From: a virus
DNA length: 64,000 bases
Strand: one strand, 5' to 3'
IMG/VR virus record: IMGVR_UViG_3300025121_000035
Coordinates: 20,044 to 84,043 of that record
Below the pieces are notes generated by a model. It was not told the origin of the DNA. It worked only from the letters and a program-made list of their open reading frames with translations, and made no database searches. A program made the translations under genes and the position numbers. Position 1 is the stretch's first letter, and each line of letters begins with the position of its first letter. Of this stretch, positions 9,088-48,520 are shown in pieces.

Positions 9088-9101
9088 ATTGGTTTCGCCT
9101 G

Positions 9102-9117: not shown

Positions 9118-9127
9118 TAAAAAGATT

Positions 9128-10255: not shown

Positions 10256-10262
10256 AAAATAA

Positions 10263-12955: not shown

Positions 12956-12963
12956 GAAAAAAC

Positions 12964-13001: not shown

Positions 13002-13005
13002 AAAA

Positions 13006-13989
13006 ATGAAAATTAAATTATTGAAAATTAAAGAAAATGAAAAAATAGTTTTATATAAAATAAATCAAGATACTTTTACAATAAATGAAAAAACGTTTAA
13101 ATGTAAAAAAAATACGTCAAATTTAAGTTGTTATTTAAATTCTATAAATTATAGTTTAATTGATTTATTAAATGTTTCAATAGAAAATAATAAATGTTTA
13201 AATTGTAATAATATAATTGACAATAATAGATTTGAAAGAAATACTTTTTTTACTTATAAATTTTGTTCAAAATGTAATAACCATAACATTTTGAAAAAAT
13301 ATAAAAAAACTAAATGTATTATATGTGATAAAATAATTTTTTATAAAGATATTATATATTCAACTTGTGGTAATGACAATTGTTTACAAACTCATAGAAA
13401 TAATATAAATAATAACATTAAAAAAACACATTGGACTAAAAAGGAAAATGTACAAGATATTTATTTTAAAAGAAGTAATAAAAGATTAGATAATGATAAA
13501 AAATTAAATAGAAAATATACAGCTTGGAATAAGGGAAAAATTGGAATATATTCTAAAGAAACAATAGAAAAAATCAGAAATGCTACTATAAAACAAATGA
13601 AAGAAGGAAGAATTAAAAAAACTAAACAAGAAAAAGTATTTGAACAATTTTTAATTCATAATAATATAAAATATATTTATTCATTCATCTATAAAAAAAG
13701 ACAATTTGATTTCTTTTTAAAAGATTATAATTTAATAATAGAATTACAAGGAGATTATTGGCACGCAAATCCTAATTTTTGGGATGTTAATGATGATGAT
13801 GATACAAAGAAAAAATTATACGAAACACAAAAAATGAAAATAAAAGATGATATTATTAAAAAAGAATTAATAAACAAATCTAAATATAGTTTTATTGAAT
13901 TTTGGGAGTATGATATTTATAATAATTTTATAAGTGTTATACAAACTTTAACTAATAATTTTAATATAAAATTAAAAAATAATAATTAA
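13006..13989 (+). CDS. Vsr-like homing endonuclease in fractured nrdJ
   Basis: 327 residues. Several Cys pairs (CLNCNN, CSKCNN, CIICDK) give N-terminal zinc-binding modules, then a basic helical region (TAWNKGKIGIYSKETIEKIR, a NUMOD3-like piece). The C-terminal nuclease core is FDFFLKDYNLIIELQGDYWH and FIEFWEYDI, the same Vsr-like pattern as the helicase-linked enzyme. The two endonucleases are clearly members of one family but differ in the finger regions, as expected for different targets. It lies between the nrdJ halves on the coding strand, 8 bp before the C-part. Confidence 0.85.
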   Translation: MKIKLLKIKENEKIVLYKINQDTFTINEKTFKCKKNTSNLSCYLNSINYSLIDLLNVSIENNKCLNCNNIIDNNRFERNTFFTYKFCSKCNNHNILKKYKKTKCIICDKIIFYKDIIYSTCGNDNCLQTHRNNINNNIKKTHWTKKENVQDIYFKRSNKRLDNDKKLNRKYTAWNKGKIGIYSKETIEKIRNATIKQMKEGRIKKTKQEKVFEQFLIHNNIKYIYSFIYKKRQFDFFLKDYNLIIELQGDYWHANPNFWDVNDDDDTKKKLYETQKMKIKDDIIKKELINKSKYSFIEFWEYDIYNNFISVIQTLTNNFNIKLKNNN

Positions 13990-13997
13990 AAAATAAT

Positions 13998-16900
13998 ATG
14001 AAAAAAACATATAGTAAAATACTAAAAATTAATAAAAAAGGTAAGGGTAATGTATATGATTTTACAGTTCAAAATACACATAGAATTCTAGCTAATAATT
14101 TTTATACATCTAATTGTAGTATTAATCATCCTGATGCAGAAGATTTTATAGATGCTAAATTAGTAGCTGGTAAAGTAACAGGTGCTAATGTATCTGTTAA
14201 ATTAACTGATGAATTTATGAAAGCTGTAAAATCAGATTCAGATTATTATCAAACTTTTCCTATTAATTATGACATATCATCTTATACTGATAGATCTAAT
14301 CTTAAATATGGAGTTATAGAGGAACATAGTTTTCATAATATTGTAAATGATACTTTTGAAAAAGTTCAAGTTAAAAAAATCAAAGCTAAAGATTTATGGG
14401 AAAAAATTATTCATAATGCTTGGAAATCTGCTGAACCTGGTTTAATGTTTTGGGACACTATTGAAAGAGAAGCAATACCAGATTGTTATAAAGAGTTTGG
14501 TTTTAAGACAGTTAGCACAAATCCGTGCATTGTAGGAGATACATTAATTGCAGTTGCTGATGGTCGAAATTATGTATCAATAAAACAATTAGCAGAAGAA
14601 AATAAAGATATTCCAGTATATTCATCAGATGATAATGGCAATCTTGTTATTAAAACTATGAGAAATCCACGAATAACTGGATATAATAAACAAATTTATA
14701 AAATTACAATAGAAGGTGGTCATACAATAAGAGTAACAGATAATCATAAATTTATACTTAAAAGTGGTATTGATAAAGAAGCAAAAGATTTAAAATATGG
14801 TGATAGTTTACAAATATTAAATAAAGTTAATTATTTTGCTAAAAATAATTCAAATTCTTATTATTCACTATCATCTAATGGTAAAGGCTATAAGGAACAT
14901 CATCATATAGCTGAATATAATATTGGTCGTAAATTATTTGAAAATGAAGTTGTTCATCATATAGATTATATTGGTAAAAATAATAACCCAAATAATTTAG
15001 AAGTGATGACTAAAAAAGAACATGATACGTTACATATTAAAGATATGTTAAGTGATAAAAACCCATATCATAAAATGACTGATGATTGGAAATTTAATTT
15101 TGCATCACATCCTGGCGAAACAAATCCTAATTTCAGTGGATTATCAAATAATGATATTAAAAACCATGCAATTTTACTAACAAAAAAATTAAATAGAAGA
15201 TTTAGTAAAAAAGATTGGATTGATTATGCAAAAGAAAATAATTTACCACAATATTTTAGTTCATTTAGGTTATTTGATACAATTATATCATTATCTAAAT
15301 TAGTTGCTAGTGAACTTGATATTAAATTTATACATGATGATCCTAGATTAGTTAAATCTTATAATAATGCTTTAGATAATGGTTATAATGCTGAAATCAA
15401 AGATAATATGGTTATTGTTGAAAAAATATGTGAAAATTGTGAAGAATCATTTTGGGTAGATTACCAAAAAAGAGAAATATCATTTTGTTCACATAAATGT
15501 GCATTAAAATATATTAATAACAATAAAGAAATAGATATTAAAAGATCAAATTCATTAAATAATACTTATAATAAAAAAGGAGAAATAACTAAAGAAACAC
15601 AATTAAAAATTTATTCTGATTTAAAATTCGAATTAGGTAGAACACCTTTATTAAAAGAATGGGAAAATGAATGTAAAAATAATAATGTTCCTTTTAGACT
15701 AAAAACAAAATATGGGTTTAATTCATTTAAAAAAATAAAAGAATCTTCTGATTTTTATAACCATAAAGTAATATCTATTGAATTAGATGGTTTTGAAGAT
15801 GTTTATAACGGGACTGTTGATGATACACATAAATTTTATGCTGGTGGATTTGAAGAAAAAACAAAATCAGGTAAGTCGAAGACAATCAGTGTGTTACAAG
15901 AAAATTGCGGAGAGATTCCGTTAAATCCATATGATTCTTGCCGACTATTAGCTATAAATTTATATTCATATGTTGATAATCCTTTTACAAAAGATGCTAA
16001 ATTTAATTTTAAATTATTTAAAGAACATACTCAATATGCACAAAGATTTATGGATGATATTGTTGATTTAGAAATTGAAAAAATTGATGAAATTTTGAAA
16101 AAAATTGATGCAGATCCTGAACCTGAAGAAATGAAAATTGTTGAAAGAAATCTATGGATAAAAATTAAAGAAAAAGCTATTCAAGGTAGACGAACTGGAT
16201 TAGGTATTACTTCTGAGGGCGATATGTTAGCTGCACTTGGTATTATTTATGGAACACCTGAAGCAACTGAATTTGCAGAAAAAATTCATAAAACATTAAC
16301 AATAGAGGCCTATAAATCTACTATTATTATGGCAGAAGAAAGAGGTGCTTTTTTAGTATGGGATTTTGAAAAAGAATATAATAATCCATTTATTCAAAGA
16401 ATTATGGGTGAATTAGATGAAGATTTTTTACATCGTTATAAAATAAAAGGTAGAAGAAATATAGCATTATTAACTATTGCTCCTACAGGTTCTGTATCCA
16501 TAATGACACAAACTACTTCTGGTATTGAACCAGTATATTTAGTTTCTTATAAAAGAAAAAGAAAAATTAATCCTAATGATAAAAATGCAAGTATTGATTA
16601 TACTGATAGTGAAGGAATAGCTTGGGAAAGATATAATGTATTTCATCCTAAATTTAAAATTTGGGCTGATATTAATGGTTATGATTCAACTAAATTAGAA
16701 AAATTAACATCTGAAGAATTAGATGTAATAATTAAAAAATCACCTTACTATAAAGCTACATCTAATGACGTTGATTGGGTCGAAAAAGTTAAAATGCAAG
16801 GTGCTATTCAAAAATGGGTTGATCATTCAATATCTGTAACAGTTAATTTACCAAATGATGTTACTGAAGATATAGTATCAAAAGTATATCAAACTGGTTG

Positions 16901-17552
16901 GGAATATGGATGTAAAGGTATTACAGTATATCGTGATGGTTCTAGAGATGGTGTTTTAGAAACTAATAAACCTGAACAAAAAGTTAATATTTTTAGAGAA
17001 ATTAATGCACCACGTAGACCTAAAAATCTTAAATGTGAAGTTATAAGATTTAATAATAAAGGTGAAAAATGGATTGGTTTTTTAGGTCTTTTAGAAAATA
17101 AACCTTATGAAGTTTTCAGTGGATTATTAGAAGCTGTTAATATACCTAATTATGTAGATTATGGTGAAATAGTTAAAATAAAAAAAGAAGAAGGTGAAAT
17201 AAATTCTAGATATGATTTTAAATATATTGATAAAGATGGTTATACTCAAACATTTAATGGATTATCTAGAGCATTTAATCGTGAATATTGGAATGTTGGT
17301 CGTATGATAAGTGGAATTTTAAGACACGGTATGCCTTTACCTAATGTTATGAGAATTATTGACAAATTAGATTTTGGAGAAAATTCAAATGATATAACTT
17401 CATGGAAAGCTGGTATTAAGAGAATGTTAAAAAAATACATTAAAGATGGAACTTCTGTTCATGGTTCTAAATGTCCTCAATGTGGAAATACAGAATTGAT
17501 GTTTAAGGAAGGGTGTGTTAGCTGCGAATGTGGTTGGAGTAAATGTGATTAA
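13998..17552 (+). CDS. nrdJ: NrdJ C-part: C-intein, extein, contiguous HNH intein, extein
   Basis: 1184 residues. Residues 1-39 are the C-fragment of the split intein (VYDFTVQNTHRILANNF, YTSN), then extein from CSINHPDAEDFID to STNP at 176. A second intein of 460 residues begins at Cys177 and ends at VLQEN before CGEIPLNPYDSC, so it sits exactly before the catalytic Cys of the TNPCGE motif. It has block B (TDNHKF), an HNH region (EHHHIAEYN, NEVVHHIDYIGKNNNPNNLE) and block F. The extein ends CPQCGNTELMFKEGCVSC and CGWSKCD, the zinc-ribbon tail typical of NrdJ. After both splicing events the enzyme would have about 869 residues. Thioredoxin at 21167 may reduce it. Confidence 0.9.
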   Translation: MKKTYSKILKINKKGKGNVYDFTVQNTHRILANNFYTSNCSINHPDAEDFIDAKLVAGKVTGANVSVKLTDEFMKAVKSDSDYYQTFPINYDISSYTDRSNLKYGVIEEHSFHNIVNDTFEKVQVKKIKAKDLWEKIIHNAWKSAEPGLMFWDTIEREAIPDCYKEFGFKTVSTNPCIVGDTLIAVADGRNYVSIKQLAEENKDIPVYSSDDNGNLVIKTMRNPRITGYNKQIYKITIEGGHTIRVTDNHKFILKSGIDKEAKDLKYGDSLQILNKVNYFAKNNSNSYYSLSSNGKGYKEHHHIAEYNIGRKLFENEVVHHIDYIGKNNNPNNLEVMTKKEHDTLHIKDMLSDKNPYHKMTDDWKFNFASHPGETNPNFSGLSNNDIKNHAILLTKKLNRRFSKKDWIDYAKENNLPQYFSSFRLFDTIISLSKLVASELDIKFIHDDPRLVKSYNNALDNGYNAEIKDNMVIVEKICENCEESFWVDYQKREISFCSHKCALKYINNNKEIDIKRSNSLNNTYNKKGEITKETQLKIYSDLKFELGRTPLLKEWENECKNNNVPFRLKTKYGFNSFKKIKESSDFYNHKVISIELDGFEDVYNGTVDDTHKFYAGGFEEKTKSGKSKTISVLQENCGEIPLNPYDSCRLLAINLYSYVDNPFTKDAKFNFKLFKEHTQYAQRFMDDIVDLEIEKIDEILKKIDADPEPEEMKIVERNLWIKIKEKAIQGRRTGLGITSEGDMLAALGIIYGTPEATEFAEKIHKTLTIEAYKSTIIMAEERGAFLVWDFEKEYNNPFIQRIMGELDEDFLHRYKIKGRRNIALLTIAPTGSVSIMTQTTSGIEPVYLVSYKRKRKINPNDKNASIDYTDSEGIAWERYNVFHPKFKIWADINGYDSTKLEKLTSEELDVIIKKSPYYKATSNDVDWVEKVKMQGAIQKWVDHSISVTVNLPNDVTEDIVSKVYQTGWEYGCKGITVYRDGSRDGVLETNKPEQKVNIFREINAPRRPKNLKCEVIRFNNKGEKWIGFLGLLENKPYEVFSGLLEAVNIPNYVDYGEIVKIKKEEGEINSRYDFKYIDKDGYTQTFNGLSRAFNREYWNVGRMISGILRHGMPLPNVMRIIDKLDFGENSNDITSWKAGIKRMLKKYIKDGTSVHGSKCPQCGNTELMFKEGCVSCECGWSKCD
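14526..15905 (+). other. Contiguous HNH-type intein at NrdJ catalytic Cys (460 residues)
   Basis: Cys1 at codon 14526, C-terminal Gln-Glu-Asn at 15903-15905, +1 Cys is the reductase active-site Cys. Block A (CIVGDTLIAV), block B (RVTDNHKFIL), an inserted HNH endonuclease, a Cys-rich piece (CENCEESFWV, CSHKCALKY) and block F (DVYNGTVDDTHKFYAGG) are all present, so splicing and homing both look possible. The penultimate residue is Glu instead of His. Confidence 0.88.
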
Positions 17553-26571: not shown

Positions 26572-28705
26572 TTACTTTATTTCCTCGAAATCTACATCTT
26601 CTGCACTATTATCTGGTTTTGGTTCAGATGTCTGTTCAGTTTGAGTTTGTTGATACATTTTAGTTGAAACTTCATTCCACAAAGCAGTTAAACTTTCCAT
26701 ATCGGTTTTGATTTTATCTAAATCTTTTGCTTTATGAGATTCTTTTAAGATATCTACTTTTTCTTGTAATTTTGTTTTTTCATTATCAGATATTTTATCA
26801 CCAAACTCTTTAATTTGTTTTTCAGTTTGGAAAATCATAGAATCTGCATTATTTAATAATTCAACTTCTTCTTTAGCTTTTTTATCAGCTTCGGCATTAT
26901 TTTCAGCATCTTTCTTCATTGTTTCTATTTCTGTATCAGATAAATTAGAAGATCCTTCAATTCTAATAGATTGTTTTTTATTAGTTCCTTTATCTTCCGC
27001 TGTTACGTTCAATATACCGTTTACATCCAAATCAAATGATACTTCTATTTGCGGAGTTCCTCGAAATGCTGGTGGGATACCGTCTAAATGAAATCTTCCT
27101 AAACTTTTATTATCTCTTGCCATTGGTCGTTCTCCTACCAAAATATTAATTTCTACAGATGGCTGATTATCAGATGCTGTAGAAAAAATTTGAGATTTAG
27201 TTGTTGGAATAGTTGTATTAGCTTCTATTATTTTAGTGGAAACACCGCCCATAGTTTCAATAGATAGTGATAATGGTGTAACATCTAAAAGTAATACATC
27301 ATTAACATCACCACTTAAAATTCCTCCCATTATTGCTGCCCCAATAGCAACTGATTCATCAGGATTAATTGCCTTAGATGGATCTTTACCAAATACTTCT
27401 TTAACAATTGCTTGAACTGCTGGAATTCTTGAAGAACCACCAACTAATAAAATTTCATCAATATCAGATGCTTTAAAACCAGAATCTTTTAATGCTTTAA
27501 TACAAGGTTGTTTTAAACGTTGTAACAAAGAATCTGATATTTTTTCAAAATCTGATCGACTTATTGTTCTTACTAAATGTTTAGGCATTCCATCAACTGG
27601 AATAATATATGGTAAATTTACTTCTGTTGAAGATGAAGATGATAATTCAACTTTAGCTTTTTCGGCTGCTTCTTTTAATCTTTGATAAGCCATTTTATCT
27701 TTTCTTAAATCAACACCATATTCTTTTTGAAAATCATCTGCTAAAAAATCGATAAGTAAATCATCGAAATTATCACCACCTAAATTAACATCACCATTAG
27801 TTGATTTTACTTCGAATACACCATCACCTAATTCCAATATAGAAACATCATATGTACCACCACCAAGATCGAACACAACGATTTTTTTATCTGATTTATC
27901 TTTATCTACTCCATAAGCTAAAGATGCGGCAGTTGGTTCATTAATAATTCTTAATACATTAAGTCCTGCTATTTTTCCAGCTTCTTTAGTAGCTGTTCTT
28001 TCAGCATCATTAAAATATGCCGGAACAGTAATAACGGCATCTGTTACATCTACACCTAGATATTCTTCCGCAGTTTTCTTCATTTTTTGAAGAACCATTG
28101 CAGATATTTCTTGAGGTGTATATTTATTATCGCCTATTTGAACAACAGCTAATCCATTATTTCCTTCGACTATTTTAAATGGTAATTTAATATTTTTAAC
28201 ATCTTTATATTTTTTACCAATTATTCTTTTTATACTGTAAATAGTATCTGGATTTGTAATCATTTGTCTTTTAGCTGGTTCTCCAACTTTTCTTTCACCA
28301 TCTTTTAAAAAAGATATAATTGAAGGTGTCGTTCTTTTACCTTCACTATTAGCTATTACTATTGGTTGTCCTGCTTCAATTACTGATACACAAGAATTTG
28401 TTGTTCCTAAATCACTTTACCACGCTTAATTTCTTAAGCCAATTTTACTTGTTGTAGTCTGGACTATACCATCATCCTATAAGGATGGAGTTATTATAGT
28501 CTCTGAACCTTCACCATATTTTAACAACTTAGGTGCTTGGATGCTGATTGCCCAATATTATATTTTTTCAAACTTTCACAACTATCGTTTCCAATTTTGT
28601 TGTAGTAATATAATCTTAAGGGGTTTCCAGCAGTTTAAACTCTTTAACCATTATATGTTACCATATAAAGGGGACTGGTATGTTAATCCCGATTGTTTTT
28701 CTCAT
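26572..28705 (-). CDS. dnaK: DnaK (Hsp70) chaperone, interrupted by group I intron
   Basis: Two exons: 28686-28705 (20 nt) and 26572-28414, joined across 28415-28685. Splicing gives ATG AGA AAA ACA ATC GGG AT|T GAT TTA, protein [20 protein letters not shown]..., about 620 residues, normal DnaK length. Without splicing only a truncated product from an internal Met at 28263 would form. Motifs: DLGTTNSC (phosphate 1), [37 protein letters not shown], then substrate-binding domain and the DVDFEEIK end. It refolds proteins using ATP. No DnaJ or GrpE is in the window, so host cochaperones would be needed. Promoter at 28761; hsp20 has the same promoter type. Confidence 0.93.
28415..28685 (-). ncRNA. 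Group I intron in dnaK (271 nt)
   Basis: On the minus strand the insert shows group I core elements: P7/S-like GGTTCAGAGACTAT at 28496-28509, a following TATAGTCCAGACTA, and a Q/R-like AATCAGCATCCAAGC. The 5' exon end GGGAT pairs with GTCCC just inside the intron, placing the expected U-G wobble at the splice site, and the intron ends in G at 28415. Exact removal restores the DnaK frame. No ORF is inside; the HNH gene at 28790 is a likely partner. Confidence 0.88.
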
Positions 28706-28760
28706 AATTTTTAATTTTTAATTTTTTTAATTTTTTATTTATTTTAATTGTTTTTATATT

Positions 28761-28803
28761 ATCAAAACGTATGCCATTCAAAATATGTGTCATACTGTCA
28801 TAT
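28761..28803 (-). promoter_or_regulatory. -24/-12-like promoter with TGTCA repeats before dnaK
   Basis: Minus strand: TGGCATACGTTTTGAT at 28776-28761, with TATGACAGTATGACAC upstream at 28803-28788. The spacing of TGGCA and TTG fits a sigma-54-type -24/-12 element, with A for C at -12. The hsp20 gene has TGGCATACAAATTGAT in the same arrangement. The upstream repeats overlap the end of the HNH gene. Confidence 0.6.
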
Positions 28804-29521
28804 TTTTTATTTTATTATTTAACATTAATTCCCAATCTTGTCTATTGTAATTAGTTATACTATGACAATTATAACATAAGGATATTAAATTTGTTTCTAA
28901 TATATTTGTCTTATTATAATCTATATGATGTATTGCTAATTTTTGAGTTTGTTTATTACATATACAACATTTATAATTATCTCTTTTTTTAATTTTTTCT
29001 TTTAAATTTTTATTAAATTCAAAAGGATATGGTTCATTAGAAATACCACCTTTCCAATTAGGATGATTTTCACCTTTTGGTGTATTTTCTAACAATTTAT
29101 TATATCCATCTATATCATAAGACCATTTACTTTCTCTTGATTTTCTTGCCCATTGCTTATATTCTTCTGTATGTTCTTTTCCATAAAAAGGATTTTTTTC
29201 ACCACATCTAGGATTATCTATTAAATATTTTTTTAAACTATTTGATACTTTTTTGGCAACATTTTCATTTTTTGTTGGGTTTTTATCTCCTTTTACTCTA
29301 ACACTTGTTTCTTCTCTTATTCTATCTGCTACTTCTTTACCTACTCTATCTTCCCATTTAATTTGGCGTTGCCATTTATTTTGACATTTCAAAGAACAAA
29401 ATCTTCTATTTTCTTGTGATTTAACTATTTTACCATAATTTTTTCTATATTTATTAGTTACTAAGGTAAGTTCTATCATATTATCACATAATTCACATTT
29501 TCTATATCTATATTTTTCCAT
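28790..29521 (-). CDS. HNH homing endonuclease upstream of dnaK
   Basis: 243 residues. N-terminal Cys cluster (CELCDNMIEL, CSLKCQNKW), two NUMOD3-type motifs (CGEKNPFYGKEHTEEYKQWA), and a C-terminal HNH: RDNYKCCICNKQTQKLAIHH, IDYNKTN, ETNLISLCYNCH. All metal-binding residues look present. It is outside the intron, directly upstream of the dnaK promoter, so it might cut intron-less dnaK and mobilise the intron in trans, or be an independent element. A 13-bp hairpin at 29557-29587 lies in its leader. Confidence 0.85.
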   Translation of the reverse strand: MEKYRYRKCELCDNMIELTLVTNKYRKNYGKIVKSQENRRFCSLKCQNKWQRQIKWEDRVGKEVADRIREETSVRVKGDKNPTKNENVAKKVSNSLKKYLIDNPRCGEKNPFYGKEHTEEYKQWARKSRESKWSYDIDGYNKLLENTPKGENHPNWKGGISNEPYPFEFNKNLKEKIKKRDNYKCCICNKQTQKLAIHHIDYNKTNILETNLISLCYNCHSITNYNRQDWELMLNNKIKNMTV

Positions 29522-32123: not shown

Positions 32124-33463
32124 ATGAACTACAACTAAACTAAAGATTTAGTTGTTTCTTGGGCTGAACCTGTAACCAGTTTCATATCTCCACAAGCGTA
32201 TATTTCTGCTGTTCCAGCAGTATTATTTTTTACAAAACTAAACTTTTTAATATTTGTTGCTGCATTTTGATCCCTATTGTGTTTTGTATTACAATTAGGA
32301 CAAATCCATTCCCTATCAGATAATTTCAAATTTGATTTAATATACCCACAACAAGAACACATTTTAGAAGAAGGTTCAAATTGACCAATTCTAATGATAT
32401 TACAACCATACCATTCACTTTTGTAATCCAAATACAAATTGAAATTACTAATTGATATATCAGATAATGATTGTGATAATTTATGGTTTTTAATCATATT
32501 AGATGGTTTTAATGTTTCTAAACATATTGTATCATATGTGGTTACTAATTCTTTTGATACTTTATGTAAAAAATCATTCCTTTTATTTGAAACTTTTTCA
32601 TGAATAATAGATAATTTTTTTACATATTTTTTTCTATTATTTGATCCTTTTACTTTTTTTGAAACTTTCCTTTGAATCCTTTTTAATTTTTTTAATGACT
32701 TTTTAAGATTCTTTGGATTTTCAATTTCAGTTCCATTTGATAATACAGCAAATGTTTTAATTCCCAAATCAATTCCAACTGCTTTATCTTCACTAATTGG
32801 TTTCTTTTTTGGTAATTCACTTGGTATTTCTACTAAAATAGAAATGAAATACTTACCTGTTGATGTTCTTGTTATTGTTGATTTTTTAGTTATTCCTTCA
32901 AATATTCTATCAATTTTAATTTTAATTGATGATTTGAACTTCGGTATATCTAATTTTTCATTTTCAAAATCCACATAAGTATTTTGTGGTATTCCAAATG
33001 ATTGTTTATTATCTTTTTTTGATTTGAACTTTGGAAATCCACCTTGCTTTTTGAAAAACTTTGTATATGCGTTATCAAGATTTTCTAAACTATATTGTAA
33101 AGATTGGCTATTTACTTCTTTTAACCAAGATGTTTCTTCTTGTTTTTTAAGAATTGGTAAATCTTTTTGTATATCAAATCTTGATAATCCTACACCAGTT
33201 TCTTGATATGTTTTGTTTTTTTTGTTCAACGCATAATTGTATATCCATCTTGCACAACCAAAATGTTGATGTATCAATTCTTTTTGAATTGAATTAGGAT
33301 ATATCCTATATTTGTAAGTTTTCAAAATCATATCTATTATACTATATATTTTAGAATTAGTTTCATTTTTTTCTAAAATTATTTTCAACTTTAGAATAAT
33401 TATATATAATTATTATTACAATTCATCTACCTAAACTGAAGATTTAGGGGATTTCTTGTAAAA
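32124..33463 (-). mobile_element. IS200/IS605-type element with tnpB only
   Basis: Left end (near 33463): AAGAAATCCCCTAAATCTTC then AGTTTAGGTAGATGAATTG. Right end (near 32124): AACTAAATCTTTAGTTTAGT then TGTAGTTCAT. Both ends are subterminal hairpins, as in IS200/IS605. No TnpA transposase is present, so mobility would depend on an enzyme supplied in trans. Related ends recur at 20705, 23050, 40223-40581 and 41060. Confidence 0.75.
32135..33331 (-). CDS. tnpB: TnpB RNA-guided nuclease (IS605 accessory protein)
   Basis: 398 residues from the Met at 33331; the longer form starting at 33388 adds 19 untypical residues, while MILKTYKYRIYPNSIQKELI is the usual TnpB beginning. RuvC acidic residues are present: AVGIDLGIKTFAVLSNG (Asp), ICLETLKPSNM (Glu) and NRDQNAATNI (Asp). 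The zinc finger is CSCCGYIKSNLKLSDREWIC with CPNC. So the protein looks catalytically complete. TnpB uses an omega RNA made from the 3' end of the element to cut DNA, keeping copies of the element in place. The right end and omega RNA should overlap the gene 3' end. Confidence 0.9.
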   Translation of the reverse strand: MILKTYKYRIYPNSIQKELIHQHFGCARWIYNYALNKKNKTYQETGVGLSRFDIQKDLPILKKQEETSWLKEVNSQSLQYSLENLDNAYTKFFKKQGGFPKFKSKKDNKQSFGIPQNTYVDFENEKLDIPKFKSSIKIKIDRIFEGITKKSTITRTSTGKYFISILVEIPSELPKKKPISEDKAVGIDLGIKTFAVLSNGTEIENPKNLKKSLKKLKRIQRKVSKKVKGSNNRKKYVKKLSIIHEKVSNKRNDFLHKVSKELVTTYDTICLETLKPSNMIKNHKLSQSLSDISISNFNLYLDYKSEWYGCNIIRIGQFEPSSKMCSCCGYIKSNLKLSDREWICPNCNTKHNRDQNAATNIKKFSFVKNNTAGTAEIYACGDMKLVTGSAQETTKSLV

Positions 33464-38731: not shown

Positions 38732-40228
38732 TCATAATTCTATTTGGCTTAAAACTTCTAAACATAATTCGTTAGGTACAATGGATCTTTGTTCAGCTCC
38801 TTTTAGTCCTTGTGTTCCTGTTTTACTTCCTCTTGGTGCAGCAATGTGACAAGTCATACCATTTTTACACATTGGTCTAGGTGTCCATAATTCATTATTA
38901 GTCCAGATATCTGTCGGTTTCATGCGATCATCCCCATACTGACAATATGTAACTGTATTTCTAATTGGTAAATCTATCATAATAGGGAATTTTCTTAACA
39001 TACCTCTAGGGTTTTCGATGTACCAATATTTAGGTTTAAAATAATTAATTAATTCTATTGTTTTTTCAACTAATTTATAACCAATTAAAGCTGTTTCAGA
39101 TTTAGGTTCTCTTTCTTTTGTCCAATGATGTGATACAGAAGCAATTGAGAAGGACGTACAGTTATGTACTATTAAATTTTTAACAGTATATGTATTGTCT
39201 TCTTCTACTTCTAAATTATATGTTTTTAATGATACATTTAATTTTTCTTTTTTATCAAATTGTAACCATATGTAATTATTATCAATATCATATTTTATAT
39301 TTTTACAATTTATACTAAATTTAATATTATAAAGTTTATTTGTTCTATCATCTATAATCAAAGTTGTTGGTATTTTATATACTTTATTTATACAATATTG
39401 AATACCGTATGCTAATTTTTCACTAGTTGTTGATAAATTATATTTTCCTTTTTTTATAGTATGACCATCAGAATCTATATAACCGTTTATAAATGAAATT
39501 AAATATTCATTTGGTAAATTGAATATATCAGATGTTAATTCTTTATTTGGTGATCCTATTCCAAATCGTTTAAAATAATGATATAATTCTTTATTATAAA
39601 AAATAAATTGGTTTACCGTTTTTTTAGTTTTAGATAAATTATATTTATTAAAAACTAATTTTATTTTATTTTCTAAATAATCTGTTTTTTTTTTATTACA
39701 ACATATATTAACTTCTTCACACCCATTATCTTTATGTATACTTATCCACCCATCACCAATAAATCTTCCTACAATATACCAAAAATTAATATCATTAATA
39801 GGTAGGGTATTAATTAATTTTTTAATATTATTTTGTTTTTGGTATTGGTTACTTATACCTTGTTCATAATAACAACCTTTGTATATTGGTAGTGATTGTT
39901 CTTTATTTAAAGGAATAGCAACGTATGGTGATTCTATAATTGCTTTACTTTTATTTTTACTTATATTTACTTCTATATCACCTACATTAACCCAATCTGG
40001 TTCTGTAAAATAATATTCATATTTTCTTAATTTATTATTCCATTTACGTTTTTTGTATTTAATATAATACGGGTGATTTCCAGTTACTATTGTGTTTTTA
40101 GTTTGTCTTGTATTAAAATTATAACAATCATTAGAATGATTTTCATATATTTTTGTTACTTTTCTAAATCTATTTTTATGTGTTAATACTTGATCACCAA
40201 CTACAATATTTTTTATATGTTCCGTCAA
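38732..40228 (-). CDS. DNA cytosine methyltransferase C-part with DOD intein
   Basis: 498 residues from a TTG. Residues 4-356 are intein: HIKNIVVGDQVLTHKNRFRK, block B (VTGNHPYYI), LAGLIDADG motifs FWYIVGRFIGDGWIS and LISFINGYIDSDGH, block F/G YNLEVEEDNTYTVKNLIVHN. Residue 357 is Cys, first of the extein CTSFSIASVSHHW. The extein continues with KYWYIENPRGML (motif VI-like), TVTYCQYGDDRMKPTDIWTN, and PRGSKTGTQGLKG, all familiar from phage C5-type methyltransferases. The intein N-terminus lies in the fragment at 40555, separated by an ORF-less IS605-like element. Splicing in trans or RNA-level removal would be needed for a working enzyme. Confidence 0.85.
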   Translation of the reverse strand: MTEHIKNIVVGDQVLTHKNRFRKVTKIYENHSNDCYNFNTRQTKNTIVTGNHPYYIKYKKRKWNNKLRKYEYYFTEPDWVNVGDIEVNISKNKSKAIIESPYVAIPLNKEQSLPIYKGCYYEQGISNQYQKQNNIKKLINTLPINDINFWYIVGRFIGDGWISIHKDNGCEEVNICCNKKKTDYLENKIKLVFNKYNLSKTKKTVNQFIFYNKELYHYFKRFGIGSPNKELTSDIFNLPNEYLISFINGYIDSDGHTIKKGKYNLSTTSEKLAYGIQYCINKVYKIPTTLIIDDRTNKLYNIKFSINCKNIKYDIDNNYIWLQFDKKEKLNVSLKTYNLEVEEDNTYTVKNLIVHNCTSFSIASVSHHWTKEREPKSETALIGYKLVEKTIELINYFKPKYWYIENPRGMLRKFPIMIDLPIRNTVTYCQYGDDRMKPTDIWTNNELWTPRPMCKNGMTCHIAAPRGSKTGTQGLKGAEQRSIVPNELCLEVLSQIEL

Positions 40229-40581
40229 AGAAAACCATTAAATCTTCAGTTTAATGGATGAATTTGACTAAAATGGACTTTAAATATTTAATATATATAT
40301 ATAATAATTAAATAAAAGTTCTTTGAAATGATTTAATGGTTTTGATCTACAAACCTAGATCAAGTAAAATCATTGAGGTTCAAGTATGTAAATACTTGAT
40401 AGTTAAGTATCTATACGAAAACCAAGGTAGATGCAAAATATAAAAAATGTTTAAAAATATTTTTTAACTGTGGAGCGAGTGACCGAATTCGCAGTCTAAA
40501 CAAAAAAACGGTGAGGCGTCAACATTAGTTGAGTCTATGAAACGTTGAAACACATTAATATTTATTTAATGTGTAGTTCAT
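40223..40581 (+). mobile_element. ORF-less IS605-like element inserted in intein gene
   Basis: Left end GTCAAAGAAAACCATTAAAT, then CTTCAGTTTAATGGATGAAT; right end ACATTAATATTTATTTAATG, then TGTAGTTCAT. Both match the tnpB element ends in arrangement. Removing it joins ATATGTTC to TTTATAACC and restores the intein frame as NGYKEHIKNIVVGD. TTC flanks both sides, so boundaries are uncertain by three bases. The interior has a structured, less AT-rich region (GTGGAGCGAGTGACCG, GGTGAGGCGTCAAC) that may be an omega-like RNA. Confidence 0.75.
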
Positions 40582-40827
40582 TTCTTTATAACCATTATTT
40601 GTTAATACTAATTCATCTTCTCCAAAACAAGGCGGAGATGCCCATATAATATCTGGTTGCCAGGGAACTTTATTAACATCAAATTCTAATAAATCAACTG
40701 TATAATCAGTTTTAAATTTTTCTAAATAGTCTGATGAAAATACTTCATAACCAAGTTCTTTTGCAGCTTTCCCTATTGATTTAGTACCAGCAAATAATTC
40801 TAGTACTTTTATTTTATGAATTTCCAT
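40555..40827 (-). CDS. DNA cytosine methyltransferase N-part with intein start
   Basis: 90 residues. Motif I is KVLELFAGTKSIGKAAKELG, then IIWASPP at residues 60-66; the next residue is Cys1 of the intein (CFGEDELVLTNNGYKE), after which eight residues come from the inserted element before the stop. The catalytic Cys of motif IV (PPC) is supplied by the +1 Cys of the C-part (PP|CTSFS). So the intein sits exactly at the methyltransferase active site. Spliced enzyme about 208 residues. Whether the 24-residue N-fragment can splice in trans is unknown. Confidence 0.85.
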   Translation of the reverse strand: MEIHKIKVLELFAGTKSIGKAAKELGYEVFSSDYLEKFKTDYTVDLLEFDVNKVPWQPDIIWASPPCFGEDELVLTNNGYKEMNYTLNKY

Positions 40828-41556: not shown

Positions 41557-41601
41557 TATATTAAAAATAAAAATGGTAAGACTAAATTATCTTACCGTTT
41601 G

Positions 41602-41977
41602 TGGAAAAGCAGGGAATCGAACCCTGGTGTTTACTAAATTAAAATTAATATTCTACATGCTTATAATATTTTTTAATAATTCGATACTTTACAAAATATT
41701 CAAACATACAAGTATAAAATAATTGTTACACTATAAAATATCGATTTCACAATCATTATCAATAAGTTTTTGGTTAATTTCTATTACACTGCTACAAGTT
41801 CACCTTCTTGTAAAACAGATTCGTTTCCAAATCCGACAGTCAATGCGTCACTAATCTTATTAGCCGCATTAAATAAATTCGCGTTTGCGTTTATTGTTTT
41901 GCCTTTTTTAAAGTGTTCTGACAAACACTACATGCTAATTAACCCCGTTTTAATAAGTCGATGCCATTTTCTTTCCC
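41602..41977 (-). ncRNA. ssrA: Transfer-messenger RNA (tmRNA)
   Basis: Minus strand, 376 nt. The 5' end GGGAAAG pairs with 3' CTTTTCC (then discriminator A), giving a 7-bp acceptor stem with the G3-U wobble used for alanine charging. The T arm is CAGGG, TTCGATT, CCCTG. After the acceptor comes AAAATGGCATCGACTT, like the conserved TGGxxTCGAC. GCATG and a hairpin precede the resume region ending GCAAACGCG, which aligns with the E. coli GCAAACGAC resume site. CCA is not encoded. The tag frame reads ANANLFNAAN and runs on to 34 residues, ending ELVAV and TAATAG. Pseudoknot-like GC-richer segments follow. It rescues stalled ribosomes. Confidence 0.85.
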
Positions 41978-42058: not shown

Positions 42059-42475
42059 TTATTGATCTAAATCAAAATTTTCTAATGTTTTTTTCTTTAA
42101 TTTTTTAAATTTTTCATCAATGTCAATAATACTAGCTATTAATTCTTTTTGCATTTCTTCATCAGTAATACCTATATGTTTTTCTTTAATATTAGTATAT
42201 AACGTTCTTTGATCTTTATCTAATTTTTTAATATTATTATCATATTCAATAATATATTTTTTTAATTGTTCTATATTTTTACTAAGTTTAAAAGTTTTTT
42301 CTTTATATGCTTTATCATTTTTAATAATATCTTCATCATTTAGTTCATCTTTAATGGTTTCTATTATCGTTAAATATTCTTTCATTTCTCCTTCTTTTTC
42401 AACAATATAAAATAAGTTAGTTAAATATTCTTTTCTTATTCGTCTTGCTTCATTAATATATAATTGATCTATCAT
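42059..42475 (-). CDS. Coiled-coil protein of unknown function
   Basis: 138 residues from Met at 42475; a longer form from 42526 would be read only through the antiphase of the neighbour's EDKN repeats. MIDQLYINEARRIRKEYLTN, then long charged heptad-like helices (KLSKNIEQLKKYIIEYDNNI, DEKFKKLKKKTLENFDLDQ). It lies 4 bp after the 372-residue gene and may be a scaffold or core-like partner. Confidence 0.55.
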   Translation of the reverse strand: MIDQLYINEARRIRKEYLTNLFYIVEKEGEMKEYLTIIETIKDELNDEDIIKNDKAYKEKTFKLSKNIEQLKKYIIEYDNNIKKLDKDQRTLYTNIKEKHIGITDEEMQKELIASIIDIDEKFKKLKKKTLENFDLDQ

Positions 42476-42479
42476 AATT

Positions 42480-43598
42480 CTATTTATCTTCGTTTTTATC
42501 TTCGTTTTTATCTTCGTTTTTATCAACAGATGCTTTCTTAGTATATTTTCTTTTTGATTTTTTTTCTTGTTCGTTTTTCATATCATCATCAGTTTCTTCT
42601 TTAAGATATTCATCTGGAATATCATCTCCAAAAATTTCTTTAATTATTTGTTTTTCAACTTGTTCTTCAATAATTTTAATATTTGTATATATATTATTAA
42701 TAATTATTTTTTTATAATATTGTACAATATCACCCTCCATATTTTCAACCATCATTTTAACAAATTCTGGTTTACCTATTTTATCTTTAAATTCTATATT
42801 TACAGAAATATCGTGTTTTCTTTTAAATGTACTGAAAACCATTTCATTAGGATCCAATTGTGATTGTTGTACTTGTGGTTGATTAAGATTATTTGTTTGT
42901 TGTGATTGAGAAACACTTGTAGGTTGTCTTTGTAATCTTTTCAACCTTCTTTTATTTGCTTCTTCTTCTCCATATGCCAATTTTTCATTTTCATATAATT
43001 CATCTATATTTACTATTGGTTTAATAATTGGTTGTGGTTTAGGTTGTGTTTTATTTTGTTGATTTAAAAAATCTTGGTAGGCATCATCATCATTATCATA
43101 TACCTTATATTGTGATACATTTGTATTAGTATTATTTGGTATTTGTTGAGGACTATTATCTTGTCTTATTATAGCTGATTCATTCATATTAGGTATAAAT
43201 TGGTTTTGTATAGGTTGATTTTGCACTATATTGGATTGTGCTACCTTAGTTTTATTTGTAGTATTTTTAAGTATTTCTGAACCAATATTTTCATTTTTAA
43301 CTTTACTTATATCAACAGATTTAATTTTATTTAAAATATCCGTATTTACTGCACTTGTTCTTAAAAATGCTTCTGGATCAATTTCATTTGATTGAACATT
43401 TGATTGAACATTTGATTGAACATTTGATTGAACATTTGTTGATTCACTAACTACATTATCAAGTATACCATAATATTTTGAAAAAATATTTTTTTTAATC
43501 ATTTGACCGTCTGATAGTTGATAAAATGCTTCTTCAATATTATCTTTAGCTATTGTAACTGCTTTATGAGTAGGATCATCTTTTCTATAATAATGCAT
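42480..43598 (-). CDS. N/Q-rich protein of unknown function
   Basis: 372 residues. Low-complexity Asn/Gln/Ser-rich middle (NVQS four times, QNQPIQNQFIPN, VSQSQQTNNLNQ), a more ordered region (FSTFKRKHDISVNIEFKDKI, GKPEFVKMMVENMEGDIVQY) and a Lys/Glu-rich tail (KRKYTKKASVDKNEDKNEDK). Composition suggests a flexible virion or assembly protein. No family recognised. Confidence 0.55.
   Translation of the reverse strand: MHYYRKDDPTHKAVTIAKDNIEEAFYQLSDGQMIKKNIFSKYYGILDNVVSESTNVQSNVQSNVQSNVQSNEIDPEAFLRTSAVNTDILNKIKSVDISKVKNENIGSEILKNTTNKTKVAQSNIVQNQPIQNQFIPNMNESAIIRQDNSPQQIPNNTNTNVSQYKVYDNDDDAYQDFLNQQNKTQPKPQPIIKPIVNIDELYENEKLAYGEEEANKRRLKRLQRQPTSVSQSQQTNNLNQPQVQQSQLDPNEMVFSTFKRKHDISVNIEFKDKIGKPEFVKMMVENMEGDIVQYYKKIIINNIYTNIKIIEEQVEKQIIKEIFGDDIPDEYLKEETDDDMKNEQEKKSKRKYTKKASVDKNEDKNEDKNEDK
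43385..43432 (-). repeat. Four 12-bp tandem repeats encoding NVQS
   Basis: CATTTGATTGAA is repeated four times in the plus-strand orientation, giving four in-frame NVQS units; a slippage-prone coding microsatellite. Confidence 0.9.
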
Positions 43599-43697: not shown

Positions 43698-44081
43698 ATG
43701 ATTAAAAGATTTAACGAGTTTAATAAAAATCAAAGTATAGAAAGTGAAAGACTAGCAATGGAAAGAGAATTGATAGCACGTAAAATTGCTAGAAATTTTG
43801 ATGAAGGAAATTTAGAAAATGATATATCAGTTGCAGATATAGTTGAACTAATTACATTTGAAATAACTCATAACGGAAATTTTCATATATCAGTTAGTAA
43901 TGAAGATTCACTCTATATGCAATATGAAAGTGAAAATATAGGAAGATTAAAAGTATTTAAACCAGAAGATATTGCAACAATCGGAGTAATAGATTTAAAT
44001 GGAATACTATATGAAAAAGATATCGACTTAATAAGAAAATTGTATTTAATATTAAAGAATCATTTAAAAAGTAATATGTAA
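43698..44081 (+). CDS. Hypothetical protein, first gene of ankyrin cluster
   Basis: 127 residues. N-terminus MIKRFNEFNKNQSIES has an F-N-E leader-like piece; a globular remainder (VADIVELITFEITHNGNFHI, FKPEDIATIGVIDLNGILYE) follows. No family recognised. Its TAATG overlap with the next ankyrin gene shows translational coupling. Confidence 0.6.
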   Translation: MIKRFNEFNKNQSIESERLAMERELIARKIARNFDEGNLENDISVADIVELITFEITHNGNFHISVSNEDSLYMQYESENIGRLKVFKPEDIATIGVIDLNGILYEKDIDLIRKLYLILKNHLKSNM

Positions 44082-45016
44082 TGAATCATAAATTTAAACA
44101 AGCGTGTATAAATAATGATATAAATCTTGTAAAGGACTTGTTAAAAACTAAAAATTTTCGTAGTAAAATTAATATAAATCAACGTCATAATATTTTAACA
44201 GAAGTATGTATATCTTCTAATAATTTTGAATTAGCAAAGATATTATTAAAAGATAATAAATTTGATGCTAAAAAATATGATTATATTATTTTTAAAAAAT
44301 TAATAGAAGATAATAAATTAGAAATGTTTAAAATAGTATATGAAAATACTTTAAATATTAATATTAAAACAGAACATTATATTTTATTTAATTCTGCTAT
44401 ATATTTCAATAAATTAGATATATTTAAATTCTTATTACAACAAAATGATACTATTATTAATGATATGTTAAGTGTTGTAGAATATGCAGTAATTAGAAGT
44501 AATAAAATTATGATATCAGAATTTATTAACCATAAATATTTAAATGTAGAATTTTTAAAATATATATTAATACTAATTATTGATAAACCAGAATTTACAG
44601 ACATAGTTAAAAAAATATTAGATTTAAACAAAATCGATATTAGTTATAATAATAATATATTATTAAAACGTTCTTGTAGAAATTTTTCAAATATTCAAAC
44701 AATTAAACTCATATTATCAGATAAAAAAGTTGATCCTGGTACTAATAACTATGAAATTATTAAGGGATTATTATTATTTGGTCATACTCATACAGAATTA
44801 GTAAAACTATTTATTTATGATAAAAGATTGGATTTATCATTTGATAGAAATTTTATTATAAGAAGATTAATATTAAATAATCAAATAGAATTAGCTCGTT
44901 ATGTTATAAATGATAAAAGGGTTAGAAAAAAATTAACTAAATCTATAACAAAAGATTTAATAAATAATAAAATAATCCCTTATTATAAATCTCGTAGTCA
45001 AGCATTAGTACTTTAA
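44081..45016 (+). CDS. Ankyrin-repeat protein 1
   Basis: 311 residues, about eight ankyrin-like units of the type LAKILLKDNKFDAKKYDYII and TIKLILSDKKVDPGTNNYEI. C-terminus IIPYYKSRSQALVL is like those of the three following paralogs. The 'LL.D.R.DPS' repeat type is common in eukaryotic giant viruses and in bacteria living with protists. Likely protein-protein interaction module; target unknown. Confidence 0.7.
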   Translation: MNHKFKQACINNDINLVKDLLKTKNFRSKININQRHNILTEVCISSNNFELAKILLKDNKFDAKKYDYIIFKKLIEDNKLEMFKIVYENTLNINIKTEHYILFNSAIYFNKLDIFKFLLQQNDTIINDMLSVVEYAVIRSNKIMISEFINHKYLNVEFLKYILILIIDKPEFTDIVKKILDLNKIDISYNNNILLKRSCRNFSNIQTIKLILSDKKVDPGTNNYEIIKGLLLFGHTHTELVKLFIYDKRLDLSFDRNFIIRRLILNNQIELARYVINDKRVRKKLTKSITKDLINNKIIPYYKSRSQALVL

Positions 45017-45046
45017 AAAACAAGTGATTATTATATTTTTTGATTA

Positions 45047-46132
45047 ATGAAACGAATAATTAAAATTTTTAAGAAATTCAAAAAAAAGTTTCAAATCATT
45101 TTTAAGAAATTAAAAAATGATTTGAAACTTTTTATACAAGTCTATTTTTATGAAAACTGGAATAGACAAGTATATATTGGTGCTATATCTGATAATCCTG
45201 ATGAATTTTTTAAATTAATGACAAAATGGAAAACTAATTTAAAATACAATTATAATTATTATATTAAATGGGCATCAACGAAAGGATATACTACAATTGT
45301 CAAATATCTTCTGAAATCAAATGAAGTTGATCCAAGTGTTAGTAATGATTTTTCATTAAATATAGCAGCAAAAGAAGGACATTTAGATATAGTTAAATTA
45401 TTATTAAATGATAAAAGAGTGAATATTGATACTTCTAGACAACCTATTATTACATCTATGGATAATCATAAATATGATATAACTAAATATCTACTAAATA
45501 AAATATATCATAGAAAGAAAAATATAAATAATACCCAATATAGAAGACGAGGTAATTTTTATACTGATCATTTTTATCCAATAAATTTTAAATATTTTCA
45601 ATACGCCTGTAATAATGGTCATATTGAAATTGTTGAATATTTATTAACTAAATCTTATTTAACTTTAAGTTTTTCTTTTTTAGTTGATGTATATAACCAT
45701 GAAGTATTTAGAGTATTATTAAAAGATAAAAGATTTAATCCTGATTATGATAATAATTATATTTTAAAAACAGCAGTATCAAGAAATCAAACAGAAATCG
45801 TAAAAGTTTTATTAGAAGATCCAAGAGTTGATCCAACAGTTGACAGATATATTATTCTAAAACGTATTATTGCTAATAAAAATATAGAATTATTAAAAAT
45901 TTTATTAAATGATAAAAGAATAGATCCATCAGTTTTTAATAATACATTATTAAAGTCAATAGATAATAGATTAGCTTCGAGTGAAAATAAAACAATAATT
46001 AATTTATTATTAAAAGACGATAGAGTATTATCAAAAATATCAGATAAAAAAAATATTAAAGAGTTAACAATTAGGAATATATTACCTAATTATAATTCTA
46101 AAAAAAAAATTATAAATAAAAAATATAGATAA
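45047..46132 (+). CDS. Ankyrin-repeat protein 2
   Basis: 361 residues. Very basic amphipathic N-terminus (MKRIIKIFKKFKKKFQIIFK), then ankyrin units (YLLKSNEVDPSVSNDFSLNI, AAKEGHLDIVKLLLNDKRV, ILLNDKRIDPSVFNNTLLKS), ending ILPNYNSKKKIINKKYR. The DNA encoding the N-terminus holds a perfect 20-bp inverted repeat (45084-45132). Overlaps the next gene by 1 bp. Function unknown. Confidence 0.7.
   Translation: MKRIIKIFKKFKKKFQIIFKKLKNDLKLFIQVYFYENWNRQVYIGAISDNPDEFFKLMTKWKTNLKYNYNYYIKWASTKGYTTIVKYLLKSNEVDPSVSNDFSLNIAAKEGHLDIVKLLLNDKRVNIDTSRQPIITSMDNHKYDITKYLLNKIYHRKKNINNTQYRRRGNFYTDHFYPINFKYFQYACNNGHIEIVEYLLTKSYLTLSFSFLVDVYNHEVFRVLLKDKRFNPDYDNNYILKTAVSRNQTEIVKVLLEDPRVDPTVDRYIILKRIIANKNIELLKILLNDKRIDPSVFNNTLLKSIDNRLASSENKTIINLLLKDDRVLSKISDKKNIKELTIRNILPNYNSKKKIINKKYR
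45084..45132. repeat. Perfect 20-bp inverted repeat inside ankyrin gene 2
   Basis: AAAAGTTTCAAATCATTTTT and its exact complement AAAAATGATTTGAAACTTTT are separated by 9 nt. It would form a strong hairpin in mRNA 37 nt after the ATG, followed by TTAT; it could attenuate transcription or translation between ankyrin genes 1 and 2. Confidence 0.85.
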
Positions 46133-46893
46133 TGTATATGTATACTGAAAAAAGTTTAATACAAGCAGCTATTAATAACGAAAATGAATTATTTATAAAA
46201 ATTTTTTATAAACCATATATTAATGTTATATATAATAACTGTGAAATTATGTTACATTTATGTGAAAACGGAAACGTAGAATTAGTTAAAATGGTATTAG
46301 ATGATAAAAGAATAAATCCTATGGTATCTGATGGTTATCCATTAGGTAAAGCTTGTCAGTTTGGTCATATAGAAATAGTAAAATTACTTTTAGCTGATTC
46401 AAGAGTACAACCTAATACTTGTTATGAAGAACCTATTAGAATGGCAGCCATGTATAATCATCCTGAAATAGTTAAAATATTATTAGAAGATGGTAGAGTT
46501 AATCCATTTTTTAATGGAAATATGGCTATTTCTAATATGATTAGTGAAAGATACAGTAGAACAATTAATTATGATATTATAAAAATGCTATTTGATTATA
46601 AAAAAGAAAAATTAATTAAAAATTCAAATGATATAATATATTATAGTTCTATGATAGCGTCAGATTTATTTGATTTATTTAAATTTGTATTAAGTATTGA
46701 TTGGGATTATGCAATAAAATTAACAAATAAAATTATAAAACTATGTTTACAATATAAAAGATCAATTTTTATCAAATATTTAATAAGTAATAATTTTATT
46801 AAAATAAATAATTTAAATAAAGATGATATATTAAGATTTAAAGAAATGAAAATATTACCCGATTATACACCACGAAAAAAAATTATTTCATAA
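46132..46893 (+). CDS. Ankyrin-repeat protein 3
   Basis: 253 residues. Clear ankyrin units at 45-130: LVKMVLDDKRINPMVSDGYP, LGKACQFGHIEIVKLLLADS, AAMYNHPEIVKILLEDGRVN. C-terminal helices then ILPDYTPRKKIIS. Start overlaps the previous stop by 1 bp (TAATG). Paralog of 44081, 45047 and 47390. Confidence 0.72.
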   Translation: MYMYTEKSLIQAAINNENELFIKIFYKPYINVIYNNCEIMLHLCENGNVELVKMVLDDKRINPMVSDGYPLGKACQFGHIEIVKLLLADSRVQPNTCYEEPIRMAAMYNHPEIVKILLEDGRVNPFFNGNMAISNMISERYSRTINYDIIKMLFDYKKEKLIKNSNDIIYYSSMIASDLFDLFKFVLSIDWDYAIKLTNKIIKLCLQYKRSIFIKYLISNNFIKINNLNKDDILRFKEMKILPDYTPRKKIIS

Positions 46894-46929
46894 ATTTATA
46901 TATATGTTTATAAAATAATTTACATTAAT

Positions 46930-47328
46930 ATGGAAAAATATAAAGAATTAAAATATGAAGGTAAAACTTATACAGAAAGATATCAAATTGAAGAAATTTT
47001 AGTTAAAGAAAAATGTGTATGGTTTATTGATGCAGAAACAGAATTAGCTAGAATCGAAATCAAACATAATATATTAATATTTAATGGTGGTAGGAAATTT
47101 GGAGTTTTCAGAAACGGAGAATTCAAATTTGGAAAATTTGATGATGGCGTTATTTTTAATGGTGTGTTTAAAGGTGGTCTTTTTAAAAACGGTTATATTT
47201 ATAATGGTACATTTATAGATTGCCAATTTTTAAATGTTGTGTTAAAAAAATTTAATCAAAACGGATCAGAAACTATGCAAGATTTTATTAATTGTGATAT
47301 ATCTCCTAATGTGAAAAAAGAAAAATGA
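46930..47328 (+). CDS. Repeat protein with MORN/pentapeptide-like NGxFxxG units
   Basis: 132 residues. Residues 55-105 are a run of short units GVFRNGEFKFGKFDDGVIFN, GVFKGGLFKNGYIYNGTFID, with Asn-Gly turns every 8-10 residues, like small beta-solenoid or MORN-type repeats in phages. A leading helix (TERYQIEEILVKEKC) and short tail flank them. Lies inside the ankyrin cluster. Function unknown. Confidence 0.62.
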   Translation: MEKYKELKYEGKTYTERYQIEEILVKEKCVWFIDAETELARIEIKHNILIFNGGRKFGVFRNGEFKFGKFDDGVIFNGVFKGGLFKNGYIYNGTFIDCQFLNVVLKKFNQNGSETMQDFINCDISPNVKKEK

Positions 47329-47389
47329 AAATTATAAATTTGTTTAATTAATTAATAATTATTAACTTTACTCGATAATACAATCAAAT

Positions 47390-48520
47390 ATGTTTAAAAA
47401 ATTAATAAACAGGCATAAAATGATATTACAAAATCGTTTTTATACTGTTTGTGTAAAAGGTTATGATTATAAAAAGTTTAAAAGGTTATTAAATAATAGG
47501 TTTGTTGATCCATTTATTAATGATAAAGCTTTAACTGTTTGCGTTATGCAAAATAATGTGAGTTTTATTAGAGAATTTATGTTAGTTCGAAAATTAAATA
47601 ATTCTAATACTGTATTTGGAAAAATATCCGGGTATAATGATTTTAATAATATACTTGAGGCAGCTATTGTTTATGGATCTATTGAGGCAGTAAAGGAATT
47701 AATGAATTTTAGAACATATAATTCTTTTACAATATCATATTTAATTTTTCTTTGTGCTAAATATAATCAAATAGAAATAGCTAAAATATTATTAGATATA
47801 TGGGAAGAAGATACTCACAATAAAAATATAATATTATATGATATTACTAAACCAAATATTTTATCTCAATATATAACATCAGAATCTTCTGAATTAGCAT
47901 TTGGTGAAATTATTAAACATATGATAAAATTAAAATTTGATTTTGCATATGATCATAATTCAATACTTAAAACATTTGTTAAAAATAATTTTATATCATT
48001 AGTTAAAATACTATTAGATTATTCGTCTGTTAGTTCTATGTTTAAACATAGTTATATATTTAGTGATGTTTGTAATGATGGTAATTTAGATATGTTGGAT
48101 TTATTATTAAAAGATGGTAGATATAATCCATGTTTTAATGATAATGAAGCTTTAAAAATAGCTTGTAAACGAGGATATTTAAATATAGTTAAAAGATTAT
48201 TAGAAGATAATAGAGTTAAAGATATTTTTATGAAAAACCAATCATCTACATATAGAATTGTATGTGATGTTTTAAATATTGATATATTTAAATATTTTGT
48301 TGATAATCATAATTTAATACCTTCATTTAAAAATAATTATATGTTAGATACATTGTTATTTAATATATTGTCGTATAATTATAAATCATATATTCCTTTT
48401 ATAAAATATTTACTTCAACAATCAAGTGTAATAAAAAATTTAAATATTAAACAAAAAAATAAATTAGAAAAATTAAATTTAATACCAGATTATAAATCAA
48501 AAAAAAATAAAATTAGTTAG
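47390..48520 (+). CDS. Ankyrin-repeat protein 4
   Basis: 376 residues. Ankyrin-like units through its length: FKRLLNNRFVDPFINDKALT, LDLLLKDGRYNPCFNDNEAL, KIACKRGYLNIVKRLLEDNR. Basic N-terminus MFKKLINRHKMILQNRF and the family tail LIPDYKSKKNKIS. Converges with the next minus-strand gene, overlapping it by 8 bp at the ends. Confidence 0.7.
   Translation: MFKKLINRHKMILQNRFYTVCVKGYDYKKFKRLLNNRFVDPFINDKALTVCVMQNNVSFIREFMLVRKLNNSNTVFGKISGYNDFNNILEAAIVYGSIEAVKELMNFRTYNSFTISYLIFLCAKYNQIEIAKILLDIWEEDTHNKNIILYDITKPNILSQYITSESSELAFGEIIKHMIKLKFDFAYDHNSILKTFVKNNFISLVKILLDYSSVSSMFKHSYIFSDVCNDGNLDMLDLLLKDGRYNPCFNDNEALKIACKRGYLNIVKRLLEDNRVKDIFMKNQSSTYRIVCDVLNIDIFKYFVDNHNLIPSFKNNYMLDTLLFNILSYNYKSYIPFIKYLLQQSSVIKNLNIKQKNKLEKLNLIPDYKSKKNKIS

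Follow-up and report, generated by a model that had tools for sequence, protein, structure and literature searches.

The standard one-piece bacterial tmRNA (Rfam family RF00023) combines a tRNA-like domain with a G3-U pair, the pseudoknot PK1, a resume codon and a tag reading frame that is terminated by a stop codon. Earlier listings include tags as long as about 35 residues. In the 2025 tmRNA database, the most frequent tag length is 10 residues, and tags of 2 residues represent the short extreme (PMC11915505). A marked deviation is known from Mesoplasma florum, where a long ssrA tag of unusual sequence is linked to a change of protease, Lon taking the place of ClpXP as its reader (PMC8138137). 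Phages also possess tmRNAs, which ARAGORN detected in 402 of 18,146 phages (PMC9004378). For the huge phages, Al-Shayeb et al. 2020 mention both tmRNA and SmpB and place the largest genomes in the Mahaphage clade with predicted Bacteroidetes hosts; the text passages covered do not describe the tags (PMC7162821). Whereas tmRNA and SmpB in huge phages are therefore already known, long conserved tags appear to be new: in the openly searchable article texts, we found no account of a phage lineage with conserved long tags.

Here, we analysed a 64,000-nucleotide stretch of viral DNA (hereafter the window) from a virus record of 84,043 bases. Its proteins are most similar to those of the metagenomic huge phages LR756501 (735 kb), LR756502, LR745206 and LR756504, followed by the Lak phages, and the window phage appears to be a relative of Mahaphage-group phages with genomes of 634-735 kb. 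Several other readings were noted along the window. A DnaB-type helicase reading is apparently split into two halves, which are separated by an intein-like segment and an endonuclease-like frame (8365-11351), and a reading of the large subunit of ribonucleotide reductase contains more than one apparent intein-like insertion (12098-17552). An HNH endonuclease-like frame lies just upstream of a DnaK-like frame in which the usual N-terminal start is missing, as if the gene were interrupted (26572-29521). By eye, a frame at 32135-33388 resembles a TnpB/OrfB transposon protein. A DNA methyltransferase-like gene with an intein-like insertion lies at 38732-40827, where Pfam assigns a LAGLIDADG_3 domain to the downstream frame, and a plus-strand cluster of ankyrin-repeat-like proteins, which is unusual for a phage, occupies 44081-48520.

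The preliminary description of this DNA had read an acceptor stem with a G3-U pair, a T arm and a resume region as a phage-encoded tmRNA, and had proposed a covariance search as a check. In the Rfam search, the minus strand from 41977 to 41599 matched RF00023 with 60.4 bits (E = 3.9e-21; gathering score 47) over the whole model (positions 1-374), which bears out this reading. The positions given before, 41602 to 41977, hold as well; they have to be read on the minus strand, and the end at 41602 is the discriminator A. The acceptor stem forms all seven pairs (GC, GC, GU, AU, AU, AU and GC), the third being the G3-U pair that marks alanine identity, and the T arm is canonical. CCA is not encoded at the 3' end, where CAA follows the discriminator, and the mature 3' end is probably A41602 with added CCA. 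Both stems of PK1 were located by inspection upstream of the resume codon, the first (AGUGUU/AACACU) pairing 41924-41929 with 41912-41917 and the second (UGUC/GGCA) pairing 41920-41923 with 41900-41903. The window RNA thus shares with the standard form the tRNA-like domain, the G3-U pair, PK1, the resume codon and a tag with a terminal stop. ARAGORN did not detect the window tmRNA. The features are listed in Table 1.

Table 1 Features of the tmRNA locus in the window (positions are those of the window)
Feature	Position	Strand	Basis
tmRNA (ssrA) gene, 379 nt by Rfam match	41599..41977	minus	RF00023
Acceptor stem 5' strand GGGAAAG, third pair G3-U	41971..41977	minus	7/7 pairs
Pseudoknot PK1	41900..41929	minus	inspection
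Tag frame, 34 codons from resume codon GCA, ANANLFNAANKISDALTVGFGNESVLQEGELVAV	41787..41888	minus	homologous tags
Helix UUAAUGCG/CGCAUUGA, within tag frame, helix 5 position	41840..41872	minus	RF00023 alignment
Hairpin UACAAG-AAGGUGAA-CUUGUA, within QEGELV codons	41793..41812	minus	inspection
Tandem stops UAA UAG	41781..41786	minus	
T arm CAGGG-UUCGAUU-CCCUG, canonical	41610..41626	minus	RF00023 alignment and sequence
Acceptor stem 3' strand CUUUUCC	41603..41609	minus	
Neighbouring gene, upstream of tmRNA on same strand	42059..42526	minus	tblastn

The window tmRNA departs from the standard form in its tag. Starting at the resume codon (41888-41886), the frame runs for 34 codons, compared to the usual length of 10 (PMC11915505), and ends in VAV; a short tag of about 8-12 residues with an Ala-Ala end was not found. 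An unusually long tag without Ala-Ala, reaching to UAA UAG, is what the preliminary description had reported, and this was confirmed. The remaining two frames stay open for only 15 and 5 codons. The 34-codon frame alone is weak evidence, since a frame of this length stays open by chance with a probability of 0.034 in shuffled sequence, and the earlier doubt about the frame was fair for the same reason. The decisive evidence comes from the relatives, and a frame open by chance is rejected. Searches with the tag itself were less productive. A tblastn search with the 34 residues gave no match in phages and, in plasmids, only matches with E of about 3, while no match was obtained with an exact degenerate pattern for ANANLFNA. 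A tag-anchored tmRNA pattern run over viral contigs yielded 17 stretches, and none of the 14 that were scanned reached any Rfam gathering score.

We therefore turn to the relatives, for which the nearest huge phages and 40 related IMG/VR records were searched with RF00023, with a pattern scan and with a sequence model built here. Long-tag tmRNAs, with tags of 24-33 codons, occurred in 14 other records or contigs, where the identical tmRNAs of L103 and L104 are counted once. The closest relative found is L102, whose contig is also closest to the window by a 1032-residue protein. Its tag, ANANLMNASGLVASALAGFNMFETVQEGELVSA, has 33 codons in the same frame as the window tag, and 17 of 33 aligned residues are identical (z = 9 against shuffled peptides). 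The tag of the 735 kb phage LR756501, GDYKMNAEDMMSIPTSLTGKVATESFVEDLVLA, likewise has 33 codons; its similarity to the window tag is weak and was reached by 103 of 1000 shuffles. Homologues of the neighbouring gene are found beside the tmRNA in both L102 (44% identity) and LR756501 (38%; tblastn), so that the three tmRNAs share a locus. A search by this gene again returned the L102 contig alone. The LR756501 tmRNA (L057:1660-2232) is interrupted in its T loop by 229 nt that match Intron_gpI with 96.1 bits and in this respect resembles the known intron-form tmRNAs; the window tmRNA has an intact T loop and no group I intron. Weak matches to model positions 82-140 in LR756501 at 58675 and in LR756502 at 68075, where the rest of a tmRNA is absent, were dismissed as ordinary sequence, and weak matches to the R1 model in L182, L183, L186 and L192 were attributed to chance.

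The comparison with L102 also bears on a lost base. The preliminary description had suggested that one T might be missing from a canonical nine-codon tag, ANANLFNAA followed by UAAUAA, through mutation or assembly error, and a single base inserted before UAAUAA would indeed give an Ala-Ala tag with tandem stops in the helix 5 loop. However, L102 has no UAAUAA at the expected stop site, differs from the window tag by one whole codon only and keeps homologous residues in the same frame, and the other relatives keep long frames as well, with 33 codons in LR756501 and 24-30 codons in 12 further relatives. These findings contradict the loss of a base, which we consider extremely improbable and reject. 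Not all of the likeness between the window and L102 tags needs to reflect the peptide. With a dN/dS of only 0.67, and with some of the identical residues (QEGELV) encoded within an RNA hairpin whose stem is mostly retained in L102 (ACAAG/CUUGU), part of the conservation may concern the RNA. In place of the window PK1 stem UGUC/GGCA, L102 has GUUC/GAAC.

Beside the window tag ANANLFNAANKISDALTVGFGNESVLQEGELVAV, these phages possess a further tag type, GNTNEVASKEDLVFALRNN..., which makes up a second family. It comprises 11 of the 12 further tags of 24-30 codons, namely those of L103 (identical in L104), L133, L105, L106, L107, L138, LR756502 (L173), LR745206 (L174), L178, L179 and L180, with 28-30 codons each and the general form G-N-x-N-E-V-x-S-x-E-D-L-V-x-A-L-x-N-N-I-L...A-x-A. 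The tag of LR756504, DNVNSFEQSILNELFAPVEMAVAA, has 24 codons. Seven residues are invariant across the 11 family members, the interior motif ExxxxEDLVxALxNN being among the most conserved parts, and variable columns number 16, 16 and 23 at codon positions 1, 2 and 3 (excess at third positions, p = 0.001, permutation). Pairwise dN/dS among six members was mostly 0.1-0.5. As judged from the aligned sequences, purifying selection acts on the second-family tags as peptides. Their RNAs have the fold of a tmRNA, with two-sided compensated changes in 27 of 50 predicted pairs, including P2 and the hairpin before its 3' part, and PK1 stem 1 is predicted from the alignment as well. When the family pattern was run over 84,980 bacterial and archaeal genomes, a single chance match in an unrelated frame occurred. 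Window-type and second-family (GNTNE-type) tags show no significant similarity, so that long tags may have had several origins or a single one followed by extensive divergence.

The longer tags did not lead to longer RNAs. All long-tag RNAs measure 349-387 nt, with 168-196 nt from the tag stop to the 3' end. In the window this distance is 185 nt, compared to 279 nt in the short-tag phage LR756500 (GNNAEMRMAA, 10 codons), making the post-tag region about 90 nt shorter. As the RNA length is unchanged, the tag has been extended into space that is usually held by pseudoknots. The tmRNAs of L173, L174, L179 and L180 additionally have T loops like GGGCAGUAC rather than UUCGANU, carried on covarying T stems. 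These odd T loops may explain why Rfam misses these four tmRNAs. Several tmRNAs of the huge phages score below the Rfam cut-off, namely those of LR756502, LR745206 and LR756501. Because ARAGORN and, for several genomes, the Rfam cut-off miss such tmRNAs, current counts of phage tmRNAs are too low.

The relatives often encode putative protein partners. SmpB was found in 15 of 26 records scanned, and the three proteins that were tested score above the NCBIfam SmpB cut-offs. Proteins with a ClpP fold are present in 12 of 21 records, several retaining the motif G(L/M)AASM(A/G)AV at the site expected to hold the catalytic serine, and Clp unfoldases with two ATPase domains in 11 of 17. The unfoldases of LR756502 and of the L104 phage have a UVR domain as in ClpC, together with the tripeptide VGF or LGF at the position of the ClpP loop, where that of LR756504 has VGF. 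The Clp ATPase of LR756501 is ClpB-like, with no such tripeptide after the second ATPase motif. ClpP was not found in LR756501; as this phage nevertheless has a long tag, ClpP is not obligatory. The Lak phages have SmpB and ClpP together with short tags. No Lon was found in these phages, and neither SmpB nor ClpP nor a Clp ATPase was detected in the window's 84 kb record, which is possibly a fragment. By eye, a frame of L192 (record G020) resembles the C-terminal part of ClpX.

Taken together, the most probable explanation is that the window encodes a functional one-piece huge-phage tmRNA whose long tag is an extended C-terminal signal for degradation, perhaps recognised by a Clp machine of phage origin. 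Following established tmRNA biology, the RNA would be charged with alanine and enter stalled ribosomes together with SmpB, which is phage-encoded in relatives. The ribosome would then translate the 34 codons and release a product with a 35-residue tail (alanine plus 34) that ends in LVAV. Less certainly, this tail may serve as a C-terminal degradation signal, in which about 20 extra residues might change or widen the reader. The likeliest reader would be the Clp unfoldase and ClpP of the phage lineage, and the conserved interior block would set specificity. The change of protease in Mesoplasma provides a working precedent for a changed reader (PMC8138137); there, the system is bacterial, while in these phages, where Lon was not found, the candidate reader is ClpC-ClpP. 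A fully private route, in which phage tmRNA and phage SmpB add a long tag that is read by phage ClpC-ClpP and not by host ClpXP, is a tentative extension that we hold to be less than probable.

Small hydrophobic ends are in the character of C-terminal degradation signals, and the ssrA variants LVA and AAV are known degradation ends. The long tags end in VAV, VSA, VLA, AVA, AFA or ATV, and in some relatives AVV, the last residue being Ala or Val in all window-type and second-family tags. Since the relatives also carry Clp proteases, these ends suggest that the tail is read as a degradation signal. The preliminary description had proposed the opposite, that a tag without Ala-Ala frees ribosomes while sparing phage proteins from proteases. 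The window indeed has no Ala-Ala end and some relatives end in ATV or AVV, but most ends are A-x-A or L-V-x, near known degradation ends. With small, hydrophobic ends and relatives that encode ClpP and Clp unfoldases, directed degradation is at least as likely as protection; the protective role is not supported and appears doubtful.

The C-terminal Ala or Val would equally suit the host's own ClpXP, with the additional residues being merely tolerated or tuning the rate. The lack of SmpB, ClpP and Clp ATPase in the window record and of a detected ClpP in LR756501 fits such a dependence on the host. However, the strong conservation of the second family's interior motif would be unexpected for tolerated filler, and we regard this alternative as less than probable, on a par with the private phage route. 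A different role is suggested by phage DS6A, whose tRNA-like tmRNA remnant has been proposed to inhibit host tmRNA by titrating SmpB (PMC11915505; PMC4131195). If the window RNA acted in this way, its reading frame would be incidental. Yet DS6A lacks the mRNA part, which in the window is complete and enlarged, and selected frames and phage-encoded SmpB in relatives also speak against this explanation, making it very unlikely. We thus favor an extended degradation tag.

Few known coding sequences are as short and uniform as tmRNA tags. A phage lineage that has retained tags 24-34 residues long, apparently at the cost of pseudoknots and often alongside SmpB, ClpP and a Clp unfoldase of its own, provides new candidate pairs of degron and protease and represents a testable case of viral redirection of ribosome rescue and quality control.
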